Origin: Berberis thunbergii
Taxonomy: Eukaryota; Streptophyta; Magnoliopsida; Ranunculales; Berberidaceae
Direction of reading: 5' to 3'
NCBI GenBank assembly: GCA_003290165.1
Contig: QNQO01000815.1
Location: 62,001 to 126,000 of the forward strand
Length of the DNA: 64,000 nucleotides
Shown piece by piece: positions 43,450-62,700 of the stretch; position 1 is the first letter of the stretch; each line of letters starts with the position of its first letter. Both the position numbers and the translations under genes were made by a program. The notes under the pieces were generated by a model. The model was not told where the DNA came from. It saw only the letters and a list, made by a program, of their open reading frames with translations, and searched no databases.

Positions 43450-44339
43450 GTAAGAGTAAAGCTGTTAAGACTCGAAGGGATTTGGGGTTATATATATGAT
43501 ATAGGTTTCTGAGGTTGCTGCTTTTTATGACTTCTGCTTTGATACTATATCTTCAATATGTTCATATAGCAATCATTTACTAATAAAAAAAAAAAAAGAA
43601 TTGACCCAATGTCATTTTCTTATCTGATTTCCATTTGTGACCAATCTCTCAAAATGGCACTGAAAGGATTTCAAGACGAAAGTTTCTCCCAGGATTTTTC
43701 CTGTTGCTAGTAAATACAAATGCTACCGGCAAAATACTAAAAGAAATCAAAAGAACTTGTGAGTTCTAACATGATGGATAGAAAATCTAACTCCATCTTA
43801 ATCATCAAACCTTTTCACTGTCTTCTACCATGACCCTTTCCTCAGAGTAAACTTCACTCGAATAAATAAATTTTCACCTGAAATTTCAAATAGATACTAG
43901 GACAATAAACCTGAGAGTCAATGTCCTTAATTGGGAGACAGTTGTTAACTAATAATTCAAGAAAACGAGTCTAATTTGTAACATACGTGAATTTCCAAAC
44001 ATTAAAACCACATTCATGTTTACATAAAAAAAACCGAGAAATGTACAGTTGGCTCGTAAATTCACCAACGAGGTTACAAGAGGCAGGACTTACATCTGTA
44101 TACAAAGTATGGGTCCTCCCAAAACCACTCCCCAATAAATAACCACCCTAAGTATGTAAAATTCAATAAAAAATGACTAAATACACAAGTACGGAAAAGA
44201 GGTGATAACGATAATCGTTTTGGAAGAACATCACCTCATCACTTCAGTTTATTCACATTCTATCAACTGGCATGACAGTGATATGATTTCTTCATGGTAA
44301 ACACACGATTCAGCACCAAGTACAAGCAACATCATATAT
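43450..44339. other. 3' flank of the TMEM245-like gene, no gene seen
   Basis: The part next to 44339 is the expected 3' UTR. No other feature. Confidence 0.4.
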
Positions 44340-47300
44340 TTACTGGGTTTTTGCTTTTTTTTGTTCCTTGGCTTCTGCCAAAACGAACTCCGCATACAAA
44401 TCTTTCAATGCAATCATAACTGTTGTTATCAATGGACCCATTATTGCTCCCTGTGGAAGAAAAGTACATTTAAACACTTAAAACCAATAGATCATTCGAA
44501 TAAACAATATACGTAAAACTATAGACAGGTCTGTTGACCACAAATTGTAACAAATATGGAAAATGTTTCTAATGTTAGGTGTTTGATTACGAAAACCATC
44601 TCTCAACCTTCATACTTATTTCAATTATAGACAACATCTTGCCTGGCCACTATCAAATTATAAGACACAGACTTTCCAGTGTAATTTAAAGAAAATGGAT
44701 TCCTAGCAAGCTCATTGATAAGATCAAGGATTGTGATTTCGTTTTTCGAGGTCATTTTTGTATCCTAATTTTAAGAAATATTTCGGTGTGTAAAGAAAAA
44801 ACGTAAAAAATTTGAGGATACATAAAAAATATATAATGAATTTCGAGGGTATATGAAAATGTGAAAAAAAATAGATGCAAGTAAATATATTAAATGAAGC
44901 CTAAATACCAATAAATGAAACAAACATGAAATCAATATATATAATTAGAAAATCAGGGGGTGGTTTCAAAAATCAATATATAAGTAGAGGAAATGATAAT
45001 TAGAAAATCAGAGGGGTGGTTTTAAAAATCAATAAATAATTAGAAGAATTGATAATACAAAAACCCCGAAATTTACGAAAAAAGTTCGAAATTTTCAAAA
45101 AAAACCCTTGAAATAATGCAATTTTTGGTAGTTGGGTTTTGTATTTTTACGGAAAATTTTTTCAAATTCACAAAATTTACGAAAAAATTTCGAAATTAAA
45201 AAAAAATCTTGAAAATTTTCAAAAAAAACCCTAAAAAAAATGTAACTTTTAATTTCGCCCTTTTTCTTTTCGTAATTAAAAAAAAAAAAAACGAAATTTT
45301 CGTTGAAACTTCGCGAGATTTTGGGAAATCACATTCCTTTGACCAGATACTTCATGTCAGTTTAATAAGGTTCTTGTCTACCTTATTGTTATGCTCTAAA
45401 ACCTAACCACCATACAAGCAGAGTCCAGAGGTAAGATGAACAAGTTTTCATGAACCAATCTCAGAAACACATTACTGAATTATTGAAAAACGTGTGGAAA
45501 GAACAACTGATTCCTTTTACAGTGCAATCACATACTTCAAGTCGATAACAAAAGTAGATTCTGAGCAAGAATTAGAATTTCTAAAGGAAATGTTGTTGTT
45601 CACCAATAACTCCAGTTAAAATAGTATATAACAAAAGAAGATAAATACCTCCAAAGCCGAGGGGAACAATGCCATGCCACCAATGATGCTAAGCCCAGTG
45701 AGATACGCACTATAACCGGGTATACCAACCTGAATTTCTGATGCTCCATAATCCATGAGCACAAGGTGAACAGCAGACAAAATAACAGCGAATACATATC
45801 TTTCTTCCATTACCAACTGCGCAGCTGCTGGGATTGTTGCAAACCAAGATGGAAAGATTGGCAACAGAGGACTCAAGAATGCAAGAACAGTTGACATGTA
45901 TAGAAAATGAATGGAGTACAGTCTAAATAAAAGCCACGTCAAACACCCTTGAAATAGGGCAATCTCTGCCGTAGTCAAAAGCACACTACCAATTGCATGA
46001 TCTAAAACTTCAACGCAACGGATCCTTGTAGGTTTTGAGATAGGAAGCATACACATCACTTGTTCCGTCACGCCACCAGACTCTGACGTGATTAGGTAGT
46101 ATAGAACCCAAAAGAAAACCATGGTTTGCGAAACAAAGTTCAAAACACCCGCTGCTCCAGAGATAATTGAAGTGCCAATGGAGAACACGAAACTTGCACT
46201 GCCACCTAGAACAGACTTACTACTATCAAAAACACGCTTAGACACATCGATTCCTTGAACAGCAAACCCTTTAGCCTTGACAACCAAATCCTCTCTTGTA
46301 ATGATCAATTCCCTGAATATGGCATCCAGTTCTGTGTAAATCTGACTCCACTCCTTGTTTATAATTCGGTTTCTTAGACTGATAAGCTTTTCAGTATACG
46401 GGGATGGATTCATCAATGCTGTGGATGGCTTTGTAGAATTGGAATGCTGAGTTATCACAAATTGCTTAATCCCAGCAGCAAACTCTGTTAAATTATACTG
46501 CATTGCTAAACTATCAATTTGTTGAGACACGGTTTCATAGAACATTGCAGTGTACTTATCCACCATCTCCGGAACATCATTTTCTTTCATCCATTGCTTA
46601 ACACCAATCCTCTCTGCGTAATTATTCTTCTCCACATGAATTTTCAGCGAAATCACAGCATCCTTTCCCTCCACACCAATTTTGTAAGAGAAGAAAATCC
46701 CACCAACTAAAAACCCAACAATCATCCCCACAATCAACCCAACTGCCACAATTGTCTTCAACCTCTTCAACACCCCACTAGTCAAAAAGGCGCTAAATTT
46801 ACTCCGACGGAAACTAGTACTCCTGAATGAAGAAACAGCTGACATGGTCGAATCCCAATTACTGAAAGTGAACAAAAACCCTAACCCAACAAGTCCCAAT
46901 GACCCAAAACCACCCATTTGCTCATAAGTAATAACAAACACCCCAAATGCAACTAACCACCTGACCAACTTAGAAAAACCCCTTCTTCTTTTCCCCTCAG
47001 AATCACTGTGTTTTTGCTTCTGCCGCAGAATTACATTCGAAAACGCATTCCGAATATCAAAAAGTGTACTAATTGAAACCCTAAAAATGGCAATGGGAAT
47101 TGCTAATATTGTCTCAGTGAGACCTAAATGCAAGGGTTCAGACCAAAACCCAACAAACAAATCCTGAATCCCTCTCAACGGAATTGAACATAACACAGCC
47201 CATTGAAGGGGCCTTAGATATTCTTCAAGCAATTTGAAAACCCCATATAGTAAAAAAATTGCAAAAGCAAGACCAGCATGAGCCATGGCAATGTAAATTG

Positions 47301-47549
47301 CAAGACGTACCTGAGGATCCACTGATAAAGCCGCCTTCTGATTGGGTTCCGAAGGAAGTGTTGGGTTTCGAGTAGGTTCTAAATCTTGGGTCTTGGTCGG
47401 TTTTTGATGATTGGGTTCTGGAGGAGAGGACTGGGGTGGTGAAGAAGAGGGATCTGGATCGGGTTTCGCACCGAAGCGGATCGGAACATGTCATGCCATG
47501 AGAGGTTTGTGGGGTTTTCGTTGGGTTTAGTGTAAGGGACGAGCTCCAT
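44340..47549 (-). CDS. Plant TMEM245-like multi-span membrane protein, one apparent 1-nt frameshift
   Basis: Integral membrane protein of the AI-2E/TMEM245 superfamily (At5g55960-like); molecular role unknown. Exon 1 45649-47549, exon 2 44340-44450 ([20 protein letters not shown] ... KAKTQ stop), joined at SALE/GAIM. The start ATG at 47549 gives [20 protein letters not shown] then [10 protein letters not shown], matching the conserved N terminus of the family. The frame is then lost at a CCC run (47461-47463) and resumes as [19 protein letters not shown], continuing without a stop to 45649. One missing C would restore it. Spans include [50 protein letters not shown] and [17 protein letters not shown]. 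If the shift is real, the only long protein would start at a downstream ATG such as MAHAGLAF (about 47287). A sequencing or assembly error is as likely. Confidence 0.88.
44740..45330 (-). repeat. AT-rich dispersed repeat, copy 2, in the TMEM245-like intron
   Basis: Inverted relative to copies 1 and 3 (shared TATTTAGRCTTCATTTAAT and TTTTCRCATTTTCATAT stretches). It also has internal GAAATTTACGAAAAAA-type direct repeats and a duplicated 45-bp piece (TTAGAAAATCAGRGGGGTGG at 44946 and 45000). Confidence 0.55.
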
Positions 47550-47759
47550 TGAAGAGAATTGAAGAAACAGAGTGAATAGCCGAGAAGAAAAACAGGGGAG
47601 GAGAGAGAATTTCTTCTTCTTCTTCTCTTTGCTTTTCAGATTTTTTTTTCAAAAGTAGTTCTGGCAAAAAAAACAGGGGAGGGTAGAATGGGGATTTTGT
47701 GGTGAAAGTTTTGGCCAAGTGGGGTGTGGCCTATTTGAGATTGGAGTGTAACAAGCCTG

Positions 47760-48140
47760 TGATTTCGCGAAATAATTTTTTTTTTTTTTTTTTGAGATCT
47801 CGAAATTTAAAGTTTAAAAGTACACACGTCGAGTTATTTTGAAATATTTCATATTTTTTTGTAAATTTCAGCATTTCGTGTAAAACCTAAAAGGTTACGA
47901 AGCAAATTACATTATACAGAAAGAAATATTTCATCTTATTATTAATTTTTTTTTTGTAGGTTTTGATATTTTCATATAAAATCTAAAAAATTATGAATAA
48001 AATTACATTTATAAGAATAATTGTGTATTTAGATTTCATTTATATATTTAATGTGTTTATTAAATTAATTTACTTTTATCTTACTTTTTCGCATATTCAT
48101 ATATGTTTGACATATTCTCTAAATTTTTACATTTTTTTTT
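47760..48140 (+). repeat. AT-rich dispersed repeat, copy 3
   Basis: Same order of blocks as 24130-24480: GAGATCTCGAAAT, GAGTTATTTTGAAATATTTC, TTTCGTGTAAAACCTAAAA, AATTACATTTATAAG, CATTTATATATTTAATG, TTTTTCGCATATTCAT. Confidence 0.7.
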
Positions 48141-48466
48141 ACATACAACAAAATATTTCTTAATACAGAAGACCGATGAGTAAGGTAATTTTTGGGATGG
48201 AAATGTCCTTTGTGAGTGTTAGTTAATACCGTTATGCGGTGATAGGTGACTTCCCTTATGGGTTTCTTTCGGTAAAACTGTTACTCGTAGATGCGACAAC
48301 ATAAATATTCTATGCTTGACTGGTTGATGTACTGGGCATTCGACAAAATATCTCAACTTTTTTGCTGTTTTTTGAATAATTAAAGCTAGACGGGGCATAC
48401 AACTTTGGAGGAATCTTATTCCTGGAGACAAACAAGTCTCGCATCAGGTGGGGTTGACATGTTTTT

Positions 48467-48590
48467 TTTTTTTTTTTTTTTTTTTTTATTTATAAATTTC
48501 TTAACCCCTCCCATCTCAAATGTCGTCAGCAGGGTTTGAACCTGAAATTATGATTCCATCCACCACAAATTTACCGCTGAGCTTGTAACG
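48467..48590 (-). mobile_element. tRNA-derived SINE relic with poly-A tail
   Basis: Reverse complement reads AGCTCAGCGGTAAATTTGTG (A-box-like), then GGTTCAAACCCTGC (a good B box), and ends in a 25-base poly-A (T run 48463-48487). It looks related to the 39805 relic type. Confidence 0.65.
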
Positions 48591-49183
48591 TTTTGAATGG
48601 TTGTTTAAGTTTAGTGAGGCACTTCACAGATATAAGGCACTGTTGCATTGCAATGATCAAACTACTTATAGATACAACTTGCTCAATTTGTATTGACAGA
48701 AAATGGAAGGAACAAAGGGTGAAGTTTACTGCAGATGTCTTGAACCCATCTCAAGCAACATGAATATATAAAGCCAAGTCTTCAGGATCTTAACACTCAA
48801 TTTACATTCTTTATAGCTAAAAGTGATTACAGATCAGTTAAGGCTACAATGGTGAATATTAGCTCTACAGTCTGCATTCAATGTACTAGCATTGTGGATT
48901 GGAGACAACAAACATTCGTGGAATAGCATATGCTCATCAACAGCTTCAGGAACTAAATTGGAAACTAACAAAGCGATACATGCTCTAGTGTGATAGCTTT
49001 TAAGAGAAGTTATGAACAAGAGTTCTATGGTATTTGATATCAGTAAAATGTACATCATTTACTGCTTATATAGGCAGCTTATGTAGTCATCTCAAGAGAA
49101 TAGAAGTAAATGAATAGCTGTCATAACAAACTAACACACAGCAGCATTTGAGCTAACAACCTATTTAGCTATTTTACTTAACA
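48591..49183 (-). mobile_element. 3' LTR of the copia element (distal boundary unclear)
   Basis: A polypurine tract (GAGAGGGGA, about 49184-49192 on the minus strand) is directly followed by TGTTAAGTAAAATAGC, the TG start of an LTR at 49183. Inside is CTATATAAGCAG, a TATA-like motif. I could not locate the CA end or a matching 5' LTR; the 48640-48700 part may be flank. Confidence 0.6.
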
Positions 49184-49461
49184 TCCCCTCTCAAACTAAG
49201 TGTAGAACTATCAACAACACTTAGTTTGTCACGCAGCAATAAAAATTTGGAAGTACCAAAGGCCTTTGTAAAAAGATCAGCAACTTGATCAACTGCTAAA
49301 ATGTGATGGATAGTAATAAGCTTGCGAGCAACCTTCTCACGCTCAAAGTAGATATCTAACTCAATGTGTTTAGTTCTAGAATGAAGAACAAGATTAGCGC
49401 TCAGCATGACACTGCTCTTGTTATCACACCAGATGGTAGGAGATGCACAAGCAATCTTTAG

Positions 49462-50908
49462 TTAATAAAAAAGATATTGTAACCATGTTAGCTCAGCTGT
49501 GACTGAAGCTAGACTCCGATATTCAGCCTCAGTACTACTTCTGGATACAGTGCTTTGTTTCTTAGATAACCACGAAATGAGATCAGAGACCAAATATACA
49601 CAATAACCAGAAGTAGAGCGTATGTCAGTTGGGTCAGATGCCCAATCAACATCACAATAGCCAGACAAATGAAAGATGGAGCATGTACTAGATGAAGCCC
49701 AAAAGTAGTTGTAGCCTTTAGATACCTTAAGATTATTTTCACCGCTCGCCAATGAGATTCAAGAGGATTCTTCTTGAATTGGCAAACTCGATTGACTGAG
49801 TATGCAAGCTCTGGTCGAGTTATAGTGACATACTGTAAAGCTCCAACTATACTTCGATATAACTGAACATTTGGGACAGGATCACTACCCGTAGCAAACA
49901 ATTTTTCACCACTACTCATAGGGGTAGGCAAGCCATTAGCAAACTGCATCATGGCACGACAAAAAAGATCATTAATGTACTTGGACTGAGAGAGGAATAA
50001 ACCATTGGCAGTATGTTGAACTTGAATGCCAAGAAAGTAATGGACAAGACCCAAATCTTTCAAAGAGAACTGAGAATTCAGCTGCTGAATCAACTGAGAG
50101 ACGTCAGAGGAGTTTGAACCAGTGACTAGAATGTCATCAACATACACCAAAATAAAAATAGGAGATGGAGAGTTCCTGATGAAGAGTGATGAGTCTGACT
50201 TAGTAGATGTAAAATCAAACATGAGAAGAGTGTGTCTCAGCTTGTCAAACCATGCTCTAGGAGCTTGTTTTAAACCATAAAGAGCCTTGGTAAGCCTGCA
50301 AACTGCATTGGGACGTGAAGGATCAATAAACCCAGGAGGTTGCATCATGTAAACTTCTTCTTTGCAGATCTCCATTTAAGAATGCATTGTTGACATCCAG
50401 TTGGAACACTGGCCAAACATACGTGACAGCCACTGAGAGCATAACTCGGATGGTAGAGGGTTTAACAACTGGACTAAATGTCTCTGCATAGTCAAACCCA
50501 ACAACTTGTTGAAATCCCTTAGCTATCAAGCGAGCTTTGTATTTGTGAACCGTGCCATCTGAATTTTCATTGATCTTGAAAATCCATCTACAACCAACAA
50601 TAGACCTATATATTCTGGGGAAGGTCCACCAGTGACCAAGTATTATTCCTGATCGATGCCATATATTCTTCTTGCATAACAGCAAACCAATGAGGAGTGT
50701 CTAAGGCTTCATTCAAACTAGAGGGTTCAGCTGAAGCTATGTACACATTGGGCTTGTAGACACCTGCTTTCGACCTAGTTACCATTGGATGACCGGAAGC
50801 AGTAGTAGGATCAGTAGTAGGAACAACAGTAGGAGCAGCAGGAGAGCTCCTATCTTGGGTGGATAAATGAGGTAGCACTGGGTTAGGAGAAGTAACCACT
50901 GGAGCCAA
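49462..50908 (-). pseudogene. copia reverse transcriptase and RNase H parts, frameshifted
   Basis: Four overlapping frames (50908-50606, 50685-50323, 50375-49509, 49752-49462) together cover RT and RNase H. The breaks are at about 50620, 50345-50370 and 49700. The YVDD catalytic motif is intact. Confidence 0.85.
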
Positions 50909-51078
50909 TGGTGTTATGGCCTAGTGGTTAGGGCAGTGTGGGTTTGTTCCCCACGTCCTAGCTTCAAATCCCACCTGCGGCATGGTTACTTTCTTTAAGG
51001 GTGTTGACCTATAGGTCGCCCTGTTGATAGGTTCTGGGATCCTTAAAACCCTGCTTGCCTTCCGAAAAAAGAAAAAAA
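50904..51078 (+). mobile_element. SINE inserted in the copia element, complete with target duplication
   Basis: A 175-bp tRNA-derived SINE with GCCAATGGTGTTATGGCCTA start, A box (TGGCCTAGTGG), B-box-like AGCTTCAAATCCC, a TGACCTATAGGTC motif and an A-rich tail. It is flanked by a perfect 14-bp duplication AAGTAACCACTGGA (50890-50903 and 51079-51092). It splits the copia pol linker between SPVVT and APVVTS. Confidence 0.93.
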
Positions 51079-51843
51079 AAGTAACCACTGGACTAGAAGG
51101 AGAAGCACTACTGTCAATAGGTGCAGTACTGGCACTAGGTGTATTATTGTCATTAGTTATAGGAGAAATAGATATAGGTGCAGGGGAAAGAGAAGTAGAT
51201 ATTGAAGAATTGGTACTCAATCTTGTATGTGAAAGGAGTTCTGATTAAATAGAACATCCCTGGAGATATATATGCGGCCATTAGGAGATAAGCACTTATA
51301 CCCTTTATGTTGCAAGCTATAACCAAGAAGTGTACACTCAACAGACCTGAATTGAAGTTTGTGAAAATTGTATGGTCTTGTATTTGGAAAACATGAACAA
51401 CCAAAGACTTTGAGATTATGATAATCAGGAACCTAGTGATAAAGTGTCTCAAATGGAGAGAGGTAATTTAAAACAGAAGAAGGAACCCGATTAAGAAGGT
51501 AGACTGAAGTCCTTACTGCTTCATCCCAAAACTTCATAGGAAGAGAAGCATGAGCCAGAAGGGTCAATGCAGATTCAATGATATGTCTATGTTTTCTTTC
51601 AGCAACTCCATTTTGGTGATGTGTGGTGGGGCAAGCCAGTCGATGACAAATACCATGTTGAGCTAATTTTTTTGAAAATGATCTATATTCCCCACCCCAG
51701 TCAGATTGAATACATTTAAAGGGAATACCAAATTCCAATTCAACCTGTGATTTGAACTTAAGAAAAGTATGATAAGCATCTGATTTGTTTTGTAAAAGAT
51801 ACACCCAAGTGAACCTACTATATGCATCAATAAAGTGAATATA

Positions 51844-53712
51844 TTACTTGTAACCAGAGGAAGACACAGTGGAAGCATGACCCCATAGATCCGTATGAAT
51901 GAGTTCTAAAGGTTTATTGTATACAGTAGAAGAACTAGAAAAGGGGAATTTGTGTATTTTTCCTAAACAACATGAGGAACACAAATCAACAGTATCCTTA
52001 TTTGAAACAGAAATGTTACATCTGGTAAATATCTTTTGCACAAGTGGTAATGAAGGGTGACCTAATCGAGCATGCCAAAGATACAAAGATGAAGATGACT
52101 CAGAAGTAGTTGTATTGACTGAAACTTTTTGATTGAAACAAGAAGAATTTGTATTGACTTGAATGCTTTGATTTAAACTGGAAGACTCTAACTCTGGAGC
52201 AGCAAGAGGCATGGATGGGAAGACATAGAACCCCTCGTTAAGCTTCCCTTCCAAGACGATTTGGTTGGTGACCCGATCCTTAACAAAACACAAATTAGAG
52301 TGAAATTCAAAGAAAACTCCATTATCTCTTGCAAATTTAGAAGCACTTAACAAATTCTTAGTGACTTTAGGAACTTGAAGAACATTCTTAAGAAGCAATG
52401 TTCTTGAAGAATTTGAAGAGTGTAAGGTAGACTGACTAATGTTTTGAATTTGTAATGCAGTACCATCCCCTAAAAAGAGTTGTTCATTGCCATGATAAGG
52501 AACTGAAGATGTCAAATTCTGAGTATATGGAGTGCAGTGATCTGTTGCTCCAAAATTAGGATACCACCTACGATCAGATGATGTAGATGAAGCAACACAT
52601 GTTTGCATCTGAGACTGAGATTCTGCTTCCCAACTAGGATGAGTAGACTGACTGGAAAATGCAGAGAAAACATGATGAGGTTGTAGATTTGCTGTCTGAG
52701 AAGGTGTGCCTGAAAATGAGGTCTGGGGAGTGGAGCTCCATGGATTTGGAACATTATTGTCAAACCTATTATAGCATTTGAATGCAAGATATCCAAGTTT
52801 GCCACAAATTTGACACTGAGGTCGATTGGATTGATAACCAGAGGGCCTAAAACCTCTCCCAGATCCAGATCTTGCACCTCTAGGCGAGAAGTGATTGAAT
52901 AGAGATCTGAATTGAGGTCTCCAATCATGTGAGTTTGACACAAAAGATCTATGAGAGGGTTTGTATGAGGTGTGAGCCACATTTTTAGAACTAGACACGT
53001 CAAGATCCTTCATATGTCTTTCAATTCTTGATTCTTGAGCAAGCAAAAGTGATTCAACCTCTGCTACACTATATGCATCAGATCTAGAGCTCACTGAGAC
53101 TACAAATGTATCATATGACTGTGGTAATCCATCAAAAATTGCATTAATATGATCTTTTGGAGAAAGTGGATGCCCTACAGATGCTAATTGATCAATGATA
53201 GACTTCAGTTTCAGTAGACAGTCATTAATAGAAAGATCTCCTTTCTTGAAATTCTGTAACTGAGTCCTAAACTGAGAGATTTTGGCAACGGTTTGAGAAT
53301 TGAAGAATGTTTCAAGAATCTTCCAATAATGTTCAAATGTTTCACAACCTACTAACCTTGTGAGCAATGATTCGATCATAGAAGAAATAAGCCATGAGAA
53401 CAGGAGTTGATCTTGTTGTTCCCAGTTGATAAACTCTGGATTGACATTATTGTTTGCTTGATCTTTAGCTGATAGAAATCGTGATGGAGATGAACCTTTT
53501 TCAATAAACTTCTGAAGTTTGTGACCGCTGATTGTTGCCAACACTTGTTGTTTCCACAACAAGTAGTTGTGTTCATCCAGTTTTACAGATAAAGCATGAG
53601 TAAACATCACTGGTTTTGACTCTGTCATGACAGAATTGGTGAATGACGCAGTATTTAAGGAGGTTGAATCCGCCATTGATACTATTGAGAAAGATTGAAA
53701 TTGAATTTGCAC
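51844..53712 (-). pseudogene. copia gag, protease and integrase N-terminal part
   Basis: A 622-codon open frame encoding gag and the start of pol. The mutated zinc knuckle and protease active site are noted above. It ends at a stop just before the integrase motif YIHFIDAYSRFTW, which continues in the same frame to 51433. Confidence 0.85.
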
Positions 53713-53838
53713 AACTTGTTGAACCTATGCCTCTGCATTGAATGCTTTTGATATCATTGAGCTTTCAATAAACAACATAGTTTGTTAATTTGTTTATTTT
53801 GTATGATGAATATAACTTTTGAACTTTTCATTTTGATG

Positions 53839-54806
53839 AAGCATTTCTCCAATGCCGGATTTCCTTGCCCAATAATGCAAAGCCCGTCTGATCATTTTCT
53901 ACGTGCGATAAATGCCGACTTTGACAGGATTATAGCCATGTGCAAAAACTGGCAGGTGAATATTTTACTATTTTATAACATGGTTTTTATTGAAGATGTT
54001 AATACCTTTAGAGGCCAGCAATCTATGATGACAAGTTTTCAGTTCTTATCAATGAGACACTCTTACTTGGTAAAGTTTTGGGATTTGGGATGTTTTTTCA
54101 GTATATAAAACAGAGATGTATACCCAACAAAATACAGAGAATGCTCTGGTTTCGAGCTATGTTTTGATGACTGTTTGGAGTTTTCTTTCGATCTATGCTC
54201 TATTCATTGAACGGTATTCATATTTATTTGTTGACAGGAAGAGATGAGATCATCTACAAAGTAAGCAACTTGGATCTTTGTTGCTAAGATCCCACAATCT
54301 GTCACGGAAGCAGCATTTCAGAGGTAATGATGTTTCATATTTCCTGACTGGTGGGAGTTTGATTTCCTGACAGAGGGTATTCCATCTCATAATTCACGAT
54401 GTAAAACAGGATGTGTTGTTCTTCATGTTTGCTAAATGTTATGCTGAACGCACAAGTATGTGCTTTTTTAAGTTTTGTGATTTTCTGCATCCAAGCAGAC
54501 TCAGACATGTTTATTGTTGATGATGCAATATGGTTTTCATTGCGTGAACTGCAATCTACGTAATTACTTTTAGAAAAATCTTTTCTGGAATGGAAAAATC
54601 TTTTCTTGCATGAAGATAATTAAGCATTTACTTTTGTTTTTGTTTTTTCTTTTCCTCTTTTCTGTAATGCAATAACCTATTTCTTGTTGTTCTTTAGATA
54701 TATGCCAGTGAGGAATCAAACCAGCACTCAGGACCAATTGTTTTTCTACTTGGGAACCTTCTCGCCAGCATCCCATTTCTGTTTCTCATCGCTACTTTTG
54801 TATCGG
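53839..54806 (+). pseudogene. ABCG half-transporter fragment (ABCG3/WBC-like), two separated exons
   Basis: Exon 53839-53955 reads KHFSNAGFPCPIMQSPSDHF then LRAINADFDRIIAMCKNWQ and ends at a CAG/GTGAAT donor: this is the linker after the nucleotide-binding domain of plant ABCG transporters. Exon 54698-54806 reads IYASEESNQHSGPIVFLLGN then LLASIPFLFLIATFVSG, a piece of the membrane domain. The roughly 100-residue part between them in the family is missing, as are the ABC domain and the rest. It is adjacent to the 5' end of the copia element. Confidence 0.85.
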
Positions 54807-54904
54807 GTAATTTGCTTTTAAAACAATGATGCCAGTATCCATTTGTATTGTAGGCTTATATGAGCATGATCTTTACCTTCTCCCTATCTGTTTTTGTTAT
54901 ATAG

Positions 54905-57900
54905 CTTGCAACAACTTGAAGCTCATACTCACAAAAGACTGCTGTAACCATCTGAACATGCACTTGCCTGATGCTGGAGAGTTGACACAGGTATATTAGA
55001 TGTTTGTATATTAGTCGTGATGCTCCTTAGACAATGGGCATGTTGATTTATTCTAGTGTTTTATGTGCATTTGCAATAGGAAGAGTGGAGGGTTGTTGCA
55101 CAGGAGTACAACGACTGCCTTAACGGTCTTCGACAGGACGTTATTGAGCTGACAGATGAGTTGGCAGCAGGAAAAGATGCAGTTCAAGCAGCTGAATTAG
55201 TGGCCCGCTTGCACTTAAAGAAAGTGCAGGCAGATTTCGATGCAATATGTGACGCACACCACCCACAGGTAAGGTTTGAAGTTTACTATTCCCACTTCAT
55301 GGTCACACGTTCAAGCCACCACAGAGGTTGAACGCATCTTGGATAGATGCCTGGTGTCTCTCTGCTGGTGTGAACATGTGCAGTTAATCTTAGTGTGACA
55401 TACCCTATGAGGTTTGCATGGTAGTTCCCACCACTTCTCTCCCTTCCCTTCAAAGGTTCCACTTCCTGTAAGAGTCATTCGATCAAGTTGGTAGAACACA
55501 AGCCATTGGTTATGACTGTCTTCTTTAGGCCAGCATTCTGGTCCATCCGGCGCCATAAGAACTCCATCAAGCTAACAAAATAACACAACACTTTTTTAGT
55601 AATGTGTTCCATTAGCACTCCATTCCTTACCGGCTTTTACTAATTTCCTCCCTTCAAATTAGTCATGTTTGATTAATTTCATTCACTGGGTTAGTGAGGA
55701 ATTCGATTTCCTTTGAATAAAATGTTAACTACTCAAGTGAATGGGAAGAACTTACTTGGAACACAAAGCCTGGTCTACATGGGCCAGAAAAGATGGTTGA
55801 ACTGATAGTGAAAGTATGATCAGCAGGAGCATAAAGAACACCACCTTCAGTGGCACAAGCAGTTTTCCATGCCTTCACGAATGCGTCAGTATCATCATTA
55901 TAACCATCTCCAAACATCATCATTATTATAATCATCATAATAAATTTTAAAGTAATTATTATGAAGATAGTTTCATTTCAGTAATTATTTTGATAAATTA
56001 ATGTGGCATTAGCCACTATCCTTGTTCCGGGAAGCAAAATTTGTATTTGTGGTTAAGTCCTCATATGAATTTGGACCATGATGTTAACATTGATACTTTG
56101 TTCCTGCAGTATCATCTCCAGTGACTTGGGAGGAGCTCCCTTTGGGTAAATTATTTAAATTTCATACAGTTTGGCTAAGTTATTTTTTTACACTAAACTA
56201 ATTTTTGATTGACATTATTATTCTCCGATGTATTCAGAAATGTAGTTTCATTTAGTGATGGGAAACCTAGTAATGTTATATAATTATTTTCCTTTTTCTT
56301 ATTCAATATGCTTTGAGTACAAAGTTAAATTTTTCTTCCTTTCACTTTGCAGCATTTTGAGGAAACCTTTCAATTTTAGATGATTAAGTACAATTACATA
56401 TCAGAAGATGTGGTATCATTGAGGAAACCTTTCAATCTTTTGCATTCATGTAGAGCATAGAAGATACAAAATTTGTCCGTGTGTTTTGCCTTGTTAAACA
56501 TGGTATCATTGAATGAAGACCCAGCATGAATACAATAGTATAAGCATAATTGTATCTCTCCCTTCATTTGATAAATTTTGATGATATCGGATTTGCAGCT
56601 TGCAGGGGCAGATATTACTGTGAATTCTCATTGGGAGACGCTGCATTTGCTAGATGATGAAATCAAATCATGGCTTGCATTTGCTGCACAGAAGGTTGTT
56701 GAAGTGAACGCCTTGGCGAAGGCATTGTCTGGCCAAAAGGATGAGGTATCCATTCTTATCTTTAGTTCCAAAGTTTCTATTTTTGTATGTTTCCTGTTGG
56801 CATGCATTTGTCTAATTTCATGCAGTTTTCCTATTAAAAATAAATGTCATTGGTACAATTGTTATTTTGGCAAGTTTGGAAAGATTCAACAGGCTCGTTG
56901 CTGTGTAAATGTTGGGTAGAACCTGCCCAACTTGCAGCTTTACTTAGGATCAGATTTGAGGTTAGAATCAAAACTTCAGGTGTTAGCTAAATGGGTCCAC
57001 TACTTACTGCCGCCATTTTCTTGAATGAAACCAAATGAACAAAAAGTTCCTATGATAAAATCTTATAGTATTATGTCCATTGTTTGTCCATACAATTTAT
57101 GAAAGCAAGAGATTATGTAGGAGGAGCCCTAATCTTGTTCTTTTTATTCATTATTCAGATTGATAATAATTGTAGAAATGGTCTTGGAGAAGTGTATTCT
57201 CTAACATTCATTTCATTAAAAATGTATAACCATAAATAAAAAACATAAAACGAAACTAAGAAATGTCTGAGAAGTGTACAAGAAGTTTTCATACCATGTT
57301 AACTCCATGACATGTACAGAGCTATGTCCAATATGGACACAGAAACTCCATTTAGTGTCCATGTGTCTTAGCTTCCCAACATACCAGTTTATCTGGTGGA
57401 GATATCATTCTTATGACACTTAGGCAGTACATAATTCAATAGTCGTGATATGCAGCAAAATAGAATTGCTTACTATCACAAGCAAAATCTTAAGTGTGCA
57501 ATATTTCAGAAGTAATTCATTACTGGGACTTGGTTATCTCGATAAGGTCAATGCTGACGGGTGCTGGGCACCATTTCTTCTCATGTTTTTGTTCATGGGT
57601 TTGGTTTGAATTTGTTCGTCCAAATTGATCTTCAGTTTCTATGCAAAATCTAGTTAGTGTGCAACAGTTTGATAAAATGCTTGAAAGAATTCTTATAGCT
57701 TGGAATTTGATGGATTCAGGTTATGAGCAGATGAGTTTGCTAGGGAAGCAGTCTGGTCTTTATTGAATGCAAGAGTTGGGACTGCAGTTTGAGTTGGCAA
57801 CTCTGGTTTGAACTCCGCTTCTTTCCTTGCTTTCATGTTAAAAAATTTTATTCCAGGATTTTTTTTTTCAGTTTTAAAGGTTTTTACTTGGACTGCTAGT

Positions 57901-58072
57901 AGAGATTCTGCAAAATACATCGTATAGCTCTTTACTAACTTTGACGAAACAGAGCCTGATAGTTTCTTTCTTTCTTTGTTTATGACGAAACAGATGTCAA
58001 GGAAGGATGAAGCCATAAACCAACTCCAAAGTAATCTACAAGATTGCTCAAAGGAGTTGAATATCACAAAAG
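54905..58072 (+). pseudogene. Fragment of a coiled-coil protein gene, four intact exons, unrecognised
   Basis: Exons 54905-54990, 55080-55268, 56599-56745 and about 57995-58072, all with AG/GT borders and compatible phases. They read CNNLKLILTKDCCNHLNMHL then PDAGELTQ; EEWRVVAQEYNDCLNGLRQD then [40 protein letters not shown] then [20 protein letters not shown]; and MSRKDEAINQLQSNLQDCSK. No stops within. The sequence is heptad-like and charged, so a coiled coil is likely. The first exon starts in phase 1 and no start or end exon is visible, hence a truncated copy. I cannot name the protein. Confidence 0.6.
55404..55930 (-). pseudogene. Polygalacturonase fragment, two exons
   Basis: Exon about 55756-55930 reads [20 protein letters not shown] then [20 protein letters not shown] and [10 protein letters not shown] with a GTAAGT donor. 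Exon 55404-55571 reads [20 protein letters not shown] then [20 protein letters not shown] and [10 protein letters not shown]. This is the N-terminal part of plant glycoside hydrolase family 28 (pectin-degrading). The catalytic segments (NTDG, GDD, GHG) are absent. It lies in an intron of the coiled-coil fragment on the opposite strand. Confidence 0.88.
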
Positions 58073-58787
58073 GTTAGTATGAAGGGAAAGGTAAAATATT
58101 TGGCATGACTGCATCTCCTATTGTAGGGAAAGGTAAATAATAGTTCTTGACTCTTTTAGTTCTCTTTTATGATGTCTGTTTAGTATGAAGCATTCAAAAT
58201 AAGAGGCTGCCAAGTTTTAATCACAAATGATCTATAAATGACTTCTAAGCAAGTTCTATAACTAGTTACCTATTGTTCTAAGGTCTGCCTGGTATTAAAA
58301 TTGGTAGGATTTCATGAAGTTTGGATGCTGCATGTTCTAAGGTCTGCAATACTACTACAATATTCTTATACTCCAACTCAATTCTTCAAGTCTCAAATAT
58401 GTAAATGATCTGTTGGAGGTGTCATCTTATTGCATCTGGATTCAGTCTTTACAATGAATATTGATCATAGCACAATGAATAAATAAGTAAATAAAACTAA
58501 GCACAAATACAAGTTTATGCATCTGAATTCAGTCATTACAACGTAAACATTTTTAGTTCTGTGGATAATGAATGTGCTAACATGGTACATGCCATAGCTA
58601 TGCTGTTGCTTCATTTGCTACCATTGATGAAGGTGGCAGAAAAGGTAAGTTTCATATTTTGTGTAAAATTATAACTGAAGGGAAACTGATAAGAGGAATC
58701 ACCGTAAGTTATTAGAGAAGCCCACAAGCTAGATACCTCATTCCAATTATGATAAATATTGCAACTGCTGACATATTTTATAAATTG

Positions 58788-59156
58788 ACTTCATTTTGGA
58801 ACAAAGAAGGAAGAAAAACGTGGCTAGCCAAGCTCATTCATGTTAATGAGTTGAAGGATCAAGTATGCTCATTGTGGTTTGCTCCAGTTGGATCTGCCAG
58901 TGACTACCCCCTTTTGTCTAAATGGGTCATTTATGGAGAGGTATTGTTCAGTCTCCCTCTCATCTTATTAAACTGTTATGTTAGGTGTTCTTGGTGGTCA
59001 TTATATCTGAGGTGTTTTTGTTCCAATCGTTTGCATTCAGTTAGGTTGCAACGGGGCATGTTCTGGTCCATCCGACGATATTTCTCCCATATATTCATTA
59101 TAGGCTACTATTATCGGTCTCTACATGGCCAATTATGTGGTAGAGCGATCAACAGG
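58788..59156 (+). pseudogene. Fragment of a calcineurin-like metallophosphoesterase-related membrane protein
   Basis: Exon 58788-58940 reads SFWNKEGRKTWLAKLIHVNE then LKDQVCSLWFAPVGSASDYP and LLSKWVIYGE (donor GTATTG). Exon 59041-59156 reads LGCNGACSGPSDDISPIYSL, an in-frame TAG (59101-59103, where the family has Trp), then ATIIGLYMANYVVERSTG (donor GTGAGT). It matches the membrane-region middle part of the At4g23000-type protein, by memory of the family. The phosphoesterase core is absent. Confidence 0.78.
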
Positions 59157-59329
59157 GTGAGTTGTACATTGTAACTTGAATTTTGGATTTTGTCATGCGA
59201 CTCTGTTAGTGCATATCTGATTAGTGCTGTGCTGCAAATTTCAGGCTCTACTATCTAAGGCCAGCACTTGTCTTTTAGCTTCATATATGCTAGGAGTTGA
59301 CTCTTATGTCTCCCATTCTTTCTTTACAG

Positions 59330-59527
59330 GTAATATATGGTAGGAGCTTTCATTACACTTACATGAATGAAATCCATAGTAATTCATATGGAAATTCTAG
59401 CTCAAGTTTAAATAGCAGCCTTCAAGATACAGACGAAGATAGGACCATTGCTAGTATCCTGGCAGAAGAATGTGTTAAAGAGGGTGGTGGACTTGGGAGG
59501 CGGCTGTCTCATTTAGATTCTATCCCA
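59330..59527 (+). pseudogene. Single exon of an OTU-type deubiquitinase
   Basis: 198 nt (66 codons) between TTTACAG and a GTGAGT donor, reading VIYGRSFHYTYMNEIHSNSY and TDEDRTIASILAEECVKEGG then LGRRLSHLDSIP. The second half is the conserved segment that precedes the OTU catalytic domain in plant OTU9-like cysteine proteases. The catalytic domain is absent. Confidence 0.75.
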
Positions 59528-59529
59528 GT

Positions 59530-60340
59530 GAGTCATCTCAACAACTAACACATTGTCAGCTCACGTTTATCTAAAATTGTCCCTCTTCATGATTGGAAGT
59601 GCCAACTTCCCTTAGGTTTTTAGTTGTTTAATGTGATTTTGAAAGTATCAGTTGACGAAAGGTTTCATGTTTCAAAACTCAAAAATTTATTGGAAGACCT
59701 TCGTGATAGTAAATTGTTCGATTTAAATATTTGGAATTTTGTTAATTAATTTACTAGCACGTAACCCAAATGTCAAGAAGACCAAACCTTGAAGGATAAG
59801 AGACATGAAACAAGATTGACTAAATTTGTTTGAATATTGAATATGACTGATCAAACTAATCTTTGATTAGCTTGCTTCACTTCATTTTCTGGGTTGATTT
59901 GTTTCTTGATTGTGATCATTGTTTGATTATAATTCATTGTAAGACATCTCACAGGACTGCACCTTCTTGTTTCCAATTTTTTAGGCTCGTGAAGTTGAGA
60001 TTTTTTAATGAATGAAAGAATGAATACACACCATTTTATGATTACCTGAAGAGTTGTCTGCGACACAAAGCGGAAATGGTGATATTTGAAGCTGCTAAAG
60101 CAATAACAGAACTCAGCATTGCGTCTCTCGTAGCAGCAGTAGCAGCAGCATTGTTCCACTTTCTTTGTATTTGAGATATTTAAGTTTGTGTGTGTCATTG
60201 TATTTGAGATATTATTTGACTCAATGTAATACATTTTCTTATTAATTACATTACTTTGCCTCCATTAATTACATTACTTTGCCTCTATTATTTGATAGAT
60301 TTTGACTCAATGATTCAAAGTCATTTGATAGCAAAAAAAA
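59530..60340. other. Non-coding sequence after the fragment cluster
   Basis: Contains a short hairpin GGAAGT-GCCA-ACTTCC at 59599-59614. An imperfect direct repeat TAATTACATTACTTTGCCTC occurs near 60243 and 60265. A long A tract begins at about 60333. Confidence 0.45.
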
Positions 60341-60784
60341 AAAAAAATAAAAAAAAAAAAAAAAAAAAATTTGCCACGGTTTTAAACCATGGCTAACTAT
60401 TGCAACGGCTAAAAACCGTGGCTACCTTGCCACGGCTTATAACCGTGGCTAGGTTTAGCCACGGCTAAAAACCGTTGCTATCTTGTTAGACACGGTTTAT
60501 AACCGTTGCTAATAACTACACTTTGTAACGGCTTGGAACCGTTGCTATTTTTGCCACGGCTTAAAAACCGTTGCTATTATTATTGCCACGGCTTAGAACC
60601 GTTGCTAATTTCTGAAAATCACGCCCCCCATTCAAGCATAAAACCGTTGCTACAATGTTTAGCAACGGTTTATAGCCGTTACAAATAATTTTGCGACGCC
60701 CCTGTAGTCCACGGCTCTTAGCCGTGGCAATGGCTTGCGCCCACGGCATAGAACCGTTGCTAATGGGGGTTTTTGGTTGTAGTG
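60333..60784. mobile_element. CACTA-like element end with ACGGTT subterminal repeats
   Basis: Many copies of CCACGGYTTWTAACCGTTGCTA in both orientations between 60370 and 60760, then a terminus TTTTTGGTTGTAGTG (reverse complement CACTACAACCAAAAA) at 60784. Dense short subterminal repeats and a CACTA end are features of CACTA (En/Spm) elements. The left end runs into a poly-A stretch and is not resolved. Confidence 0.65.
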
Positions 60785-61890
60785 TATACCTTCAGATATT
60801 CTGTTGGGGCTGCCACTTTCTCCTAGAGACACTTGTTCCTCAGTAACAATTGAGAGCTCTCTTTGGCTCTCTTCTGGTCTACTACAATGCCTTCAAGCTG
60901 GAATTTTAGAAACTCGATCATGTTCAATTACCAAATAAAATAGACTAGCAACTGATACCAGGCACCACAATAGAAGAAGTATCCCCACCAACGGAGCCAA
61001 CATCCGCCCCATTTTCTTCACAAATCGTTCTTAACTCAAAATTCTTTTCTAAAGGAAGACGCAAAATACAGTAATAGAATGCGTGAAGATGAAGATTTTC
61101 AGAGCTGCAATTGACACACACAATGAATCAGATCTGAAATTGTTCAAAAAGATTACACTAGCAGCATTGCTGAATTGAAAATCTTTTATGACATAAAGAT
61201 GCAAAAATGTAAAGTAGCTCTAAAATTACAAAGAGTCTCTCTAAATTTTTAGAAATCCGAAACTTGCACAAATAGAACATAAAGCAATGCCAATCAATCC
61301 ATCGAAACAAACACCGAAATTGCAGAGATTGAAACTAGAAAATGTAACAAAACAAGAATGAAGAAGGTGTTAGTTAAGCAAACCTAAGTTGTGTCTTCAT
61401 TTCATTCAAGCTAACTAAAAATTAGTACAAAAAAGCAGAGAGAGAACTCAACGATTGATCGTTCAGAGTATAGATTGAACTACATTCACTTAATCGAAGC
61501 TAAAAATCACACACATTAGAGAGCTTAAGAAGGAAGATCTAAACAAGCAGATAGCGATCTTTCAAAGAAAACTTACGAAGTCTAGGGTCACAGATTGAAG
61601 AACCGATCCCTAGAAGAAGAAGCTCTCTCTGTCTTGCCTTCTATACTCTTCGTATTGCCTTCTCGACCGACTATTGCTCCTCCTCGACTTCGCCCTCTCT
61701 CTTTCGTTCTCCTTCTCCTTTTCCTTCTCTCTTTCCCTCTCCTTGAAATTTTAGGGTTTGAAGCAAATTAAGGGTTGAAAAGTGCAGAGTTGGGGGGAGA
61801 TGGAGCGGGAACCAAATTCTTTTCGCAAAATTTTGCCCGCGAGAAATCGACTTACTTCTCCACACGTCCACGTGCAACACACGTGCACTT
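60785..61890. other. Sequence between two CACTA-like ends, no gene seen
   Basis: CT-rich stretch at 61600-61745 (TCTCTCTTTCGTTCTCC...) and AT-rich remainder. It could be the interior of a larger CACTA element ending at 62127. Confidence 0.35.
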
Positions 61891-62127
61891 TTGCAACGAT
61901 TTTAAGCCGTTGGGCACTATAGCCACGATTTTTAGCCGTGGCAAACACACCAACGGTTTAGAACCATGGCTAAGCCTGTTTTTAGCCACAGTTTTAGGCC
62001 GTTGGCCATTATAGCCACGGTTTTTAGCCGTGGCAAATAAACCAACGGTTTAGAGCCGTGGCAAATAAACCAACGGTTTAGAGCCGTGGCCACCTCAGTG
62101 TAGCTAAACAGGCCTTTTGGTGTAGTG
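61891..62127. mobile_element. Second CACTA-like terminus, same repeat family
   Basis: Repeats GCCACGGTTTTTAGCCGTGG and CCAACGGTTTAGAGCCGTGG (two near-identical units at 62040-62085), ending CTTTTGGTGTAGTG at 62127. Same orientation as the 60784 end. Confidence 0.65.
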
Positions 62128-62149
62128 TCTAGCCACGCAGGCGAAAAAG

Positions 62150-62700
62150 AATTCTTCCCAGCACAGGTCCTCTCAAGGACTAAGCTAGAGGACTACATGA
62201 GCCTAGCCTGTTCGAGCAGAGATGGTTCCTCAGTAACCCATTTCTTGTTCACAATTGGGGTATATTATAAAGTCTAGCCTATGCAGGCATAACAGACTTA
62301 TTCACATATCAGGTTCTCCCAAGGACTAAGCCTTAGAAGTACAGGAGTCTAACTTTTTCAGGCAAAGATGGTTCCTCATCAACCCAACTCCCATTCAGGA
62401 TTGAGGCATATTATATAGTCCAGCCTAGACGAACACGAAAGAATTTTTCCCATCTTAGGTCCTACCAAGGACTGAGCTAGAAAAGGATAGGAGCCTAGCT
62501 TGTTTAGGGAAAATGGTTTTCAAGCGTAAATTACTTTTTCTCAGCTCAAGACCTCTCAAGGATCGAGCTAGATAAATACAAAGAATAGATCCCATTTGGG
62601 CGAAGATGACTCCTCAACAACCTAATTCCCGTTTAGGAATGGGATGTATTATGGGAGCCCAAACCAAAAAGGCAGAGACAACTCCTCTTTGATTCATAGT
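62150..62700. repeat. Diverged tandem array, about 140-150-bp period
   Basis: Four units share the order AGGTYCTMYCAAGGACTRAGCY, AGGAGYCTAGCYTGTT, GCAGAGATGGTTCCTCA, AACCCAATTCCCRTTCAGG, GGYRTATTATATAGTCCAGCC (unit starts near 62165, 62310, 62458 and 62550). The third unit is truncated. Non-coding. Confidence 0.7.

Follow-up and report, generated by a model that had tools for sequence, protein, structure and literature searches.

How do internal pieces of several unrelated host genes come to lie side by side, introns included, within a few kilobases of plant DNA? The question is raised by a 64,000-nucleotide stretch of Berberis thunbergii (G000:C815:62001-126000, GenBank contig QNQO01000815.1; hereafter the window), whose segment from 53.7 to 60.3 kb is patched together from pieces of host genes that keep their introns and canonical splice sites; the plus strand shows short exon-like frames and the minus strand a polygalacturonase piece. 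A first-pass annotation, made from the letters of the window, had listed five gene fragments at 53839-59527 and had proposed their capture by a Helitron or Pack-type transposon. The fragments are present in that interval and orientation, and their description as internal gene pieces with introns and splice sites applies to the whole patchwork. After searching the genome (2.24 Gb, 11732 contigs) we consider, with a probability of about 0.78, that the block represents the right-hand part of a composite Pack-CACTA element truncated on its left, composed of modules which also occur in several high-copy families and of a fresh polygalacturonase piece. This reading is supported because the modules are shared, because carriers of two families have CACTA ends and 3-bp duplications, because right ends are present in the window and in a third family, and because a near-identical polygalacturonase gene exists. 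The unit extends from position 53699 or thereabouts and closes with the CACTA right end at 60784 (Table 1); the interval first given contains the fragments but is too narrow for the unit.

Recurrent modules and their CACTA carriers

Separate stretches of the block recur at different genomic sites at 96-100% identity, namely 53725-53975, 53971-54202, 54203-55395, 56430-59127 (in parts) and 59244-60330. Each search scored the best 40 candidates only, so that all counts of places are lower bounds, and some places are alleles of one another. The query 53839-59527 (best 40 of 2904 candidates) returned the window, the contig C9100 and 38 other places, all of which match 56430-57807 at 99-100% and 57806-58791 at least in part, with 58882-59123 also present in 17 of them. 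With 53700-56429 (best 40 of 1357), besides the window and C9100, 54203-55395 was matched wholly or partly at 36 places (97-100%) and 55395-55913 at two; among these 40 scored places 55914-56429 is matched in the window and C9100 only. Besides the window and C9100, the query 59128-60330 (best 40 of 2211) matched 38 places, all from 59244 onwards (96-99%), and 34 of these extend to the query end at 60330. Last, 53725-54202 (best 40 of 473) gave the window, C9100, 13 places with 53725-53975 at 98-100% and 25 other places with all or most of 53971-54202 at 97-99%. Chance is excluded, because single stretches recur at this identity over 0.2-1.4 kb in at least 13 to at least 38 places each. The other genomic copies which the first-pass annotation had proposed to look for are thus numerous, module by module.

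Of the 38 scored places with the 56430 module (family 1), eighteen were fetched with flanks; two of them, L010 and L015, share flanks and are probably alleles. The left end, about 1.75 kb ahead of the module, starts with CACTACACCAAAATGC in 17 of the 18 copies and with CACTACAACCAAAATGC in L027, and the right end, covered in six copies, is TTTTTGGTGTAGTG in each. These six elements, of 7604-9499 bp, are flanked by exact 3-bp target duplications: TCT, TAT, ATT, TGT, CAA and CGC. For family 2, two of the at least 36 places of the 54203 module were read through, C97 and C10891 (8059 and 8083 bp); both start with CACTACACC, they end in GGTGTAGTG and TTGTGTAGTG, respectively, and their target duplications are TGC and ATT. 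A 3-bp target-site duplication is a hallmark of CACTA elements. It is exact in all eight elements with both ends in hand, which share the general pattern CACTACACC...GTAGTG over 7.6-9.5 kb; the duplication scan also picked up GTAGTG+3 strings inside L017 and L023, which are chance matches and no element ends. Palindromic CCACGG subterminal repeats, similar at left and right ends, are found in the copies of both families that were read through. The anatomy of the family-1 and family-2 carriers is that of gene-carrying CACTA elements. Family 3, defined by the module at 59244, has a right end at C205, where a terminus closing with GGTGTAGTG directly follows a module of the 59244-60330 type.

The family-1 element at C1391 (9464 bp; L010:1216-9001 and L028) contains pieces of KNOX1 (2e-18), ALMT (5e-19) and O-fucosyltransferase (1e-11) genes, and the same letters of MetE (methionine synthase) as the window. 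The KNOX1 frame, located just inside the family-1 left end, is open in 16 of the 18 copies and interrupted in L012 and L021. That a transposon captured genes, as first proposed, is strongly supported by such host pieces of several loci between CACTA ends. A TOPLESS-like identity suggested for L028:485-718 was not confirmed. In family 2, a 369 amino acid open frame near the left end (L038:6368-7474), which we took to be AINTEGUMENTA-like, was likewise not confirmed and has no Pfam support, and the piece L036:2473-2718 has a single PDB match, SMC5, with an E of 0.19.

The right terminus of the window element (60357-60785) is 97.4% identical to the family-3 end at C205; to four family-1 ends the identity is 89-91%. 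The subterminal repeat has 29 matches in the window against 0.23 expected (counting both strands, with at most 3 mismatches allowed and each palindrome scored twice), all of them within 60374-62089. That 60333-60784 is a small separate element is ruled out: at least 34 other places carry 59244-60330 as one piece, and at C205 the terminus follows it directly.

The contig C9100 shows the same order as the window over 50934-62469, with junctions at 97-99.7% identity and indels of its own, and is probably the other haplotype of the locus. At window position 58791 it contains a further 990 bp of the phosphoesterase-like piece (L009:7869-8858), and this piece is longer in C9100 than in the 18 fetched family-1 copies. 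An insertion in C9100 is rejected, as the additional bases continue into the phosphoesterase-like exon at 58792; the window has probably lost 990 bp between two CTT triplets.

Table 1. Features of the composite block and of its right flank, in window coordinates.
Position	Strand	Feature	Evidence
53699..53975	+	ABCG-transporter-like piece: intron, exon at about 53842-53955 (HFSNAGFPCPIMQ...CKNWQ), start of next intron	genome matches
53971..54202	+	Short module whose source has no assigned identity	genome matches
54203..55395	+	Module common to CACTA family 2: second ABCG-like exon 54698-54806, exon 54905-54990, coiled-coil exon 55080-55268	
55395..55913	-	Polygalacturonase (GH28) piece: two partial exons and the intervening intron	identity to C9950/C1178, Pfam
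55914..56429	.	Untyped stretch: opens with ATCATCATTAT-type repeats like the adjoining polygalacturonase letters, closes at a 21-bp repeat (copies 56357-56377 and 56419-56439)	
56430..58791	+	Module common to CACTA family 1: MetE-bearing exon 56599-56745, exon 57994-58072	18 copies compared
57807..57808	.	Site without the about 168 bp that all 18 fetched family-1 copies have	copy comparison
58792..59243	+	Phosphoesterase-like piece: exon ending 58940, exon at about 59104-59156; 58882-59127 recurs in some family-1 copies	
59244..60332	+	Module common to CACTA family 3, with OTU-like exon 59330-59527	
60333..60784	+	Right CACTA terminus: A-rich tract, palindromic subterminal repeats, terminal inverted repeat ending GGTTGTAGTG at 60784, flank TAT	
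61686..62127	-	Left terminus (CACTACACCAAAAGG...) of a second CACTA relative, in opposite orientation	84-87% to family-1 left ends

Captured genes and the reading frame across modules

The polygalacturonase piece has a likely source gene. Its Pfam match to GH28 (E 2e-4, 21 bits) is slightly below the curated cut-off of 22.9 bits, PDB chains of the pectin-lyase-like/polygalacturonase type match at E of about 1e-3, and 517 of 519 positions are identical to a complete-looking polygalacturonase gene at C9950, with equal identity at C1178. The fragment on the opposite strand had been correctly named, and with respect to the donor genes that were to be located, there is a near-identical candidate here. 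This gene (L034:1153-3245, minus strand; L035 is probably its allele) is the likely donor of the captured piece, judging by the identity. At the left edge of the piece the family-2 sequence and the polygalacturonase gene overlap in a TTAGTG-like string, and at the right edge the window goes on with ATCATCATTAT-type repeats resembling the adjoining polygalacturonase letters; these junction letters may be leftovers of end joining or of interrupted gap repair.

Residues 18-49 of the exon 56599-56745 are identical to MetE of PDB entry 1u1h in 30 of 32 positions (E 1e-12), which places part of a methionine synthase exon at 56650-56745. This exon had been counted with the coiled-coil gene. The source genes are, as claimed, multiple and unrelated, but the count of five was too low: MetE had been overlooked, and there are at least six if the names of the other pieces are right. 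The ABCG, phosphoesterase and OTU names are our reading of the protein letters, and the searches did not yield them. The presumed ABCG exon HFSNAGFPCPIMQ...CKNWQ is found elsewhere in gene-like context, with an upstream exon in C2239 and the start of a downstream exon in C10922; Pfam gave no match for either ABCG-like exon and PDB none for the second. The phosphoesterase-like piece has 81 homologues at E≤1e-3. The OTU-like piece has 15, none with an informative name, and both homologues examined (P0082 and P0083) share the exon end DSIP. For the coiled-coil exon 55080-55268 neither PDB nor the homologue search gave anything significant, and for this exon, the second ABCG-like exon and the OTU-like piece there was nothing significant in PDB and nothing usable in Pfam. 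For the ABCG-, phosphoesterase- and OTU-like pieces the searches show exons that are conserved and plant-like, or a genic context.

Four exons (54905-54990, 55080-55268, 56599-56745 and 57994-58072), each bordered by AG and GT, combine into a single open frame of 166 amino acids. The first two belong to the family-2 module and the other two, of which 56599-56745 has the MetE letters, to the family-1 module. The claim that the coiled-coil exons keep an open frame is thereby confirmed, and the potential for chimeric splicing, also foreseen in the first-pass annotation, is strongly supported by four exons of two modules joining in frame. The frame may either have been inherited from one coiled-coil donor or have been created by the joining. 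Among the 18 family-1 copies the mean difference is 7.2 positions over about 1379 columns (0.52%). At an assumed substitution rate between 6.5e-9 and 1.3e-8 per site per year, the family-1 burst would be roughly 0.2-0.4 million years old. Open frames at such low divergence are weak evidence of function, and the most likely activity of the element would be passive exon duplication.

Probable origin of the block

On the left side of the block, the ABCG-like match in C2239 extends to 53699 only, where C2239 continues as a gene, and in the window the coding region of a Copia-type retroelement (49509-53698, minus strand) directly abuts the ABCG-like sequence at about 53698. The first ATG of the Copia region is about 22 bp from the joint and therefore leaves no room for a long terminal repeat; comparison of 44001-50500 with the window revealed no long terminal repeat partner. 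On the right side, 60785-62127 holds the left terminus and 5' region of a second, inverted CACTA relative, which adjoins the right end of the first element and whose other end is not in the window. Beyond it, 62137-62518 is a diverged tandem repeat with a unit of 146 bp, about 73% alike.

Under the composite Pack-CACTA reading, a CACTA transposase would mobilise the element in trans. The exchange of modules and the capture of pieces would be due to template switching in the course of gap repair, or to rearrangements among adjacent elements. The polygalacturonase piece would have been taken recently from the plant's own gene, acting as donor, and the left end may have been lost in a deletion joining the ABCG-like sequence to Copia. 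It is possible, and we put this forward tentatively, that high-copy, recently amplified Pack-CACTA families here trade exon-bearing modules and gain fresh gene pieces, making up a modular exon-shuffling system of which the window is a recombinant, with its 166 amino acid frame crossing two modules and the polygalacturonase insert. A different version of the same reading, which we find rather unlikely, sets the window element near the ancestor: a large Pack-CACTA would have captured most pieces, and the families would have kept subsets through internal deletions and further captures. The longest phosphoesterase-like piece being found in C9100, the joining in frame of family-2 and family-1 exons, and three substitutions in the window's family-1 module that are absent from all 18 copies (the module's left edge excepted), as against the mean of 7.2 differences among them, all agree with an ancestor; yet the polygalacturonase piece, with 517 of 519 positions identical to its gene, was added late even though one of its edges falls where the family-2 match stops, at 55395, the window lacks the about 168 bp of all 18 copies, and FastTree sets the window and C9100 beside L022/L023 (support 0.81) and not outside the copies, in a tree that is unrooted and nearly star-like.

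An inverted second CACTA end adjoining at 62127 and a Copia coding region devoid of its long terminal repeat on the left side could also indicate a graveyard, in which truncated CACTA copies were piled up by nested insertion and deletion and never formed a single mobile unit. We regard this as improbable, since a CACTA terminus aligns at no module boundary within 53.7-60.3 kb and the modules of families 1, 2 and 3, whose carrier orientation is known, all agree with the right end at 60784. Assemblers can misjoin high-copy repeat modules, but the chance of an artefact joining unrelated repeats is very slight in view of C9100, which has the same junctions with indels of its own, albeit in the same assembly. 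Helitrons are marked by a 5' TC, a 3' CTRR with hairpin and the absence of target duplication, and Pack-MULEs by Mutator ends and a 9-11-bp target duplication; Pack-MULEs and gene-carrying Helitrons do carry pieces of host genes. This carrying of gene pieces, also reflected in passages of PMC13317346, spoke for the carrier type proposed in the first-pass annotation, to which we now give hardly any credence: ends and duplications differ from those of the carriers found here, and both types are ruled out for families 1 and 2 by CACTA inverted ends and 3-bp target duplications (no direct CTRR/hairpin scan was made).

Several points weigh against the composite Pack-CACTA. The window contains no left terminus for this element, there being no subterminal repeats left of 60374 and no other alignment of a family-1 or family-2 left end, and a target duplication can be read only in the elements with both ends. 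Family-3 carriers are known by their right end, and for the stretches 53725-53975 and 53971-54202 the carriers need not be CACTA elements. No transposase was found among 26 Pfam-scanned pieces (10 of the window and 16 of copies), no transposase-aimed search having been made. The near-zero inner branches of the family-1 module tree give no direction, and the longer phosphoesterase-like piece of C9100 would suit an ancestor as well as a recombinant.

Relation to known gene-carrying elements

The closest likeness is to Tgm-Express1 of the soybean wp allele, described in the passages of PMC1947982 as a 5.7-kb CACTA element with five unrelated host gene pieces including introns and with chimeric transcripts; transcription of the Berberis element could, in the same way, splice exons of different genes together. 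Both are CACTA elements with exon and intron pieces of unrelated host genes. The Berberis carriers differ in their length of 7.6-9.5 kb and in a module that recurs at 38 or more other places; the window copy differs in being a truncated composite. Pack-CACTA and other Pack-TYPE elements of Arabidopsis, rice and maize similarly combine CACTA ends with coding DNA of several loci. According to passages of PMC8903248, the number of distinct captured loci in maize is greatest among Pack-CACTAs, which are mostly low copy in rice and maize, in distinction to the at least 38 other places sharing one module here. A capture route via neighbouring elements is proposed in the passages of PMC13317346. CACTA elements with captured gene fragments are also reported for Chenopodium (5' region) and grapevine (PMC8978399, PMC2528002), and the passages of these two papers describe neither sharing of modules between families nor such a composite.

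A CACTA element carrying several gene pieces is thus of a known kind, and the high copy number and the sharing of modules are the less usual part. With numerous young copies that share modules and a likely donor that is nearly unchanged, the steps of capture (junctions, microhomology, filler and direction of exchange) and chimeric transcripts become testable in one genome.

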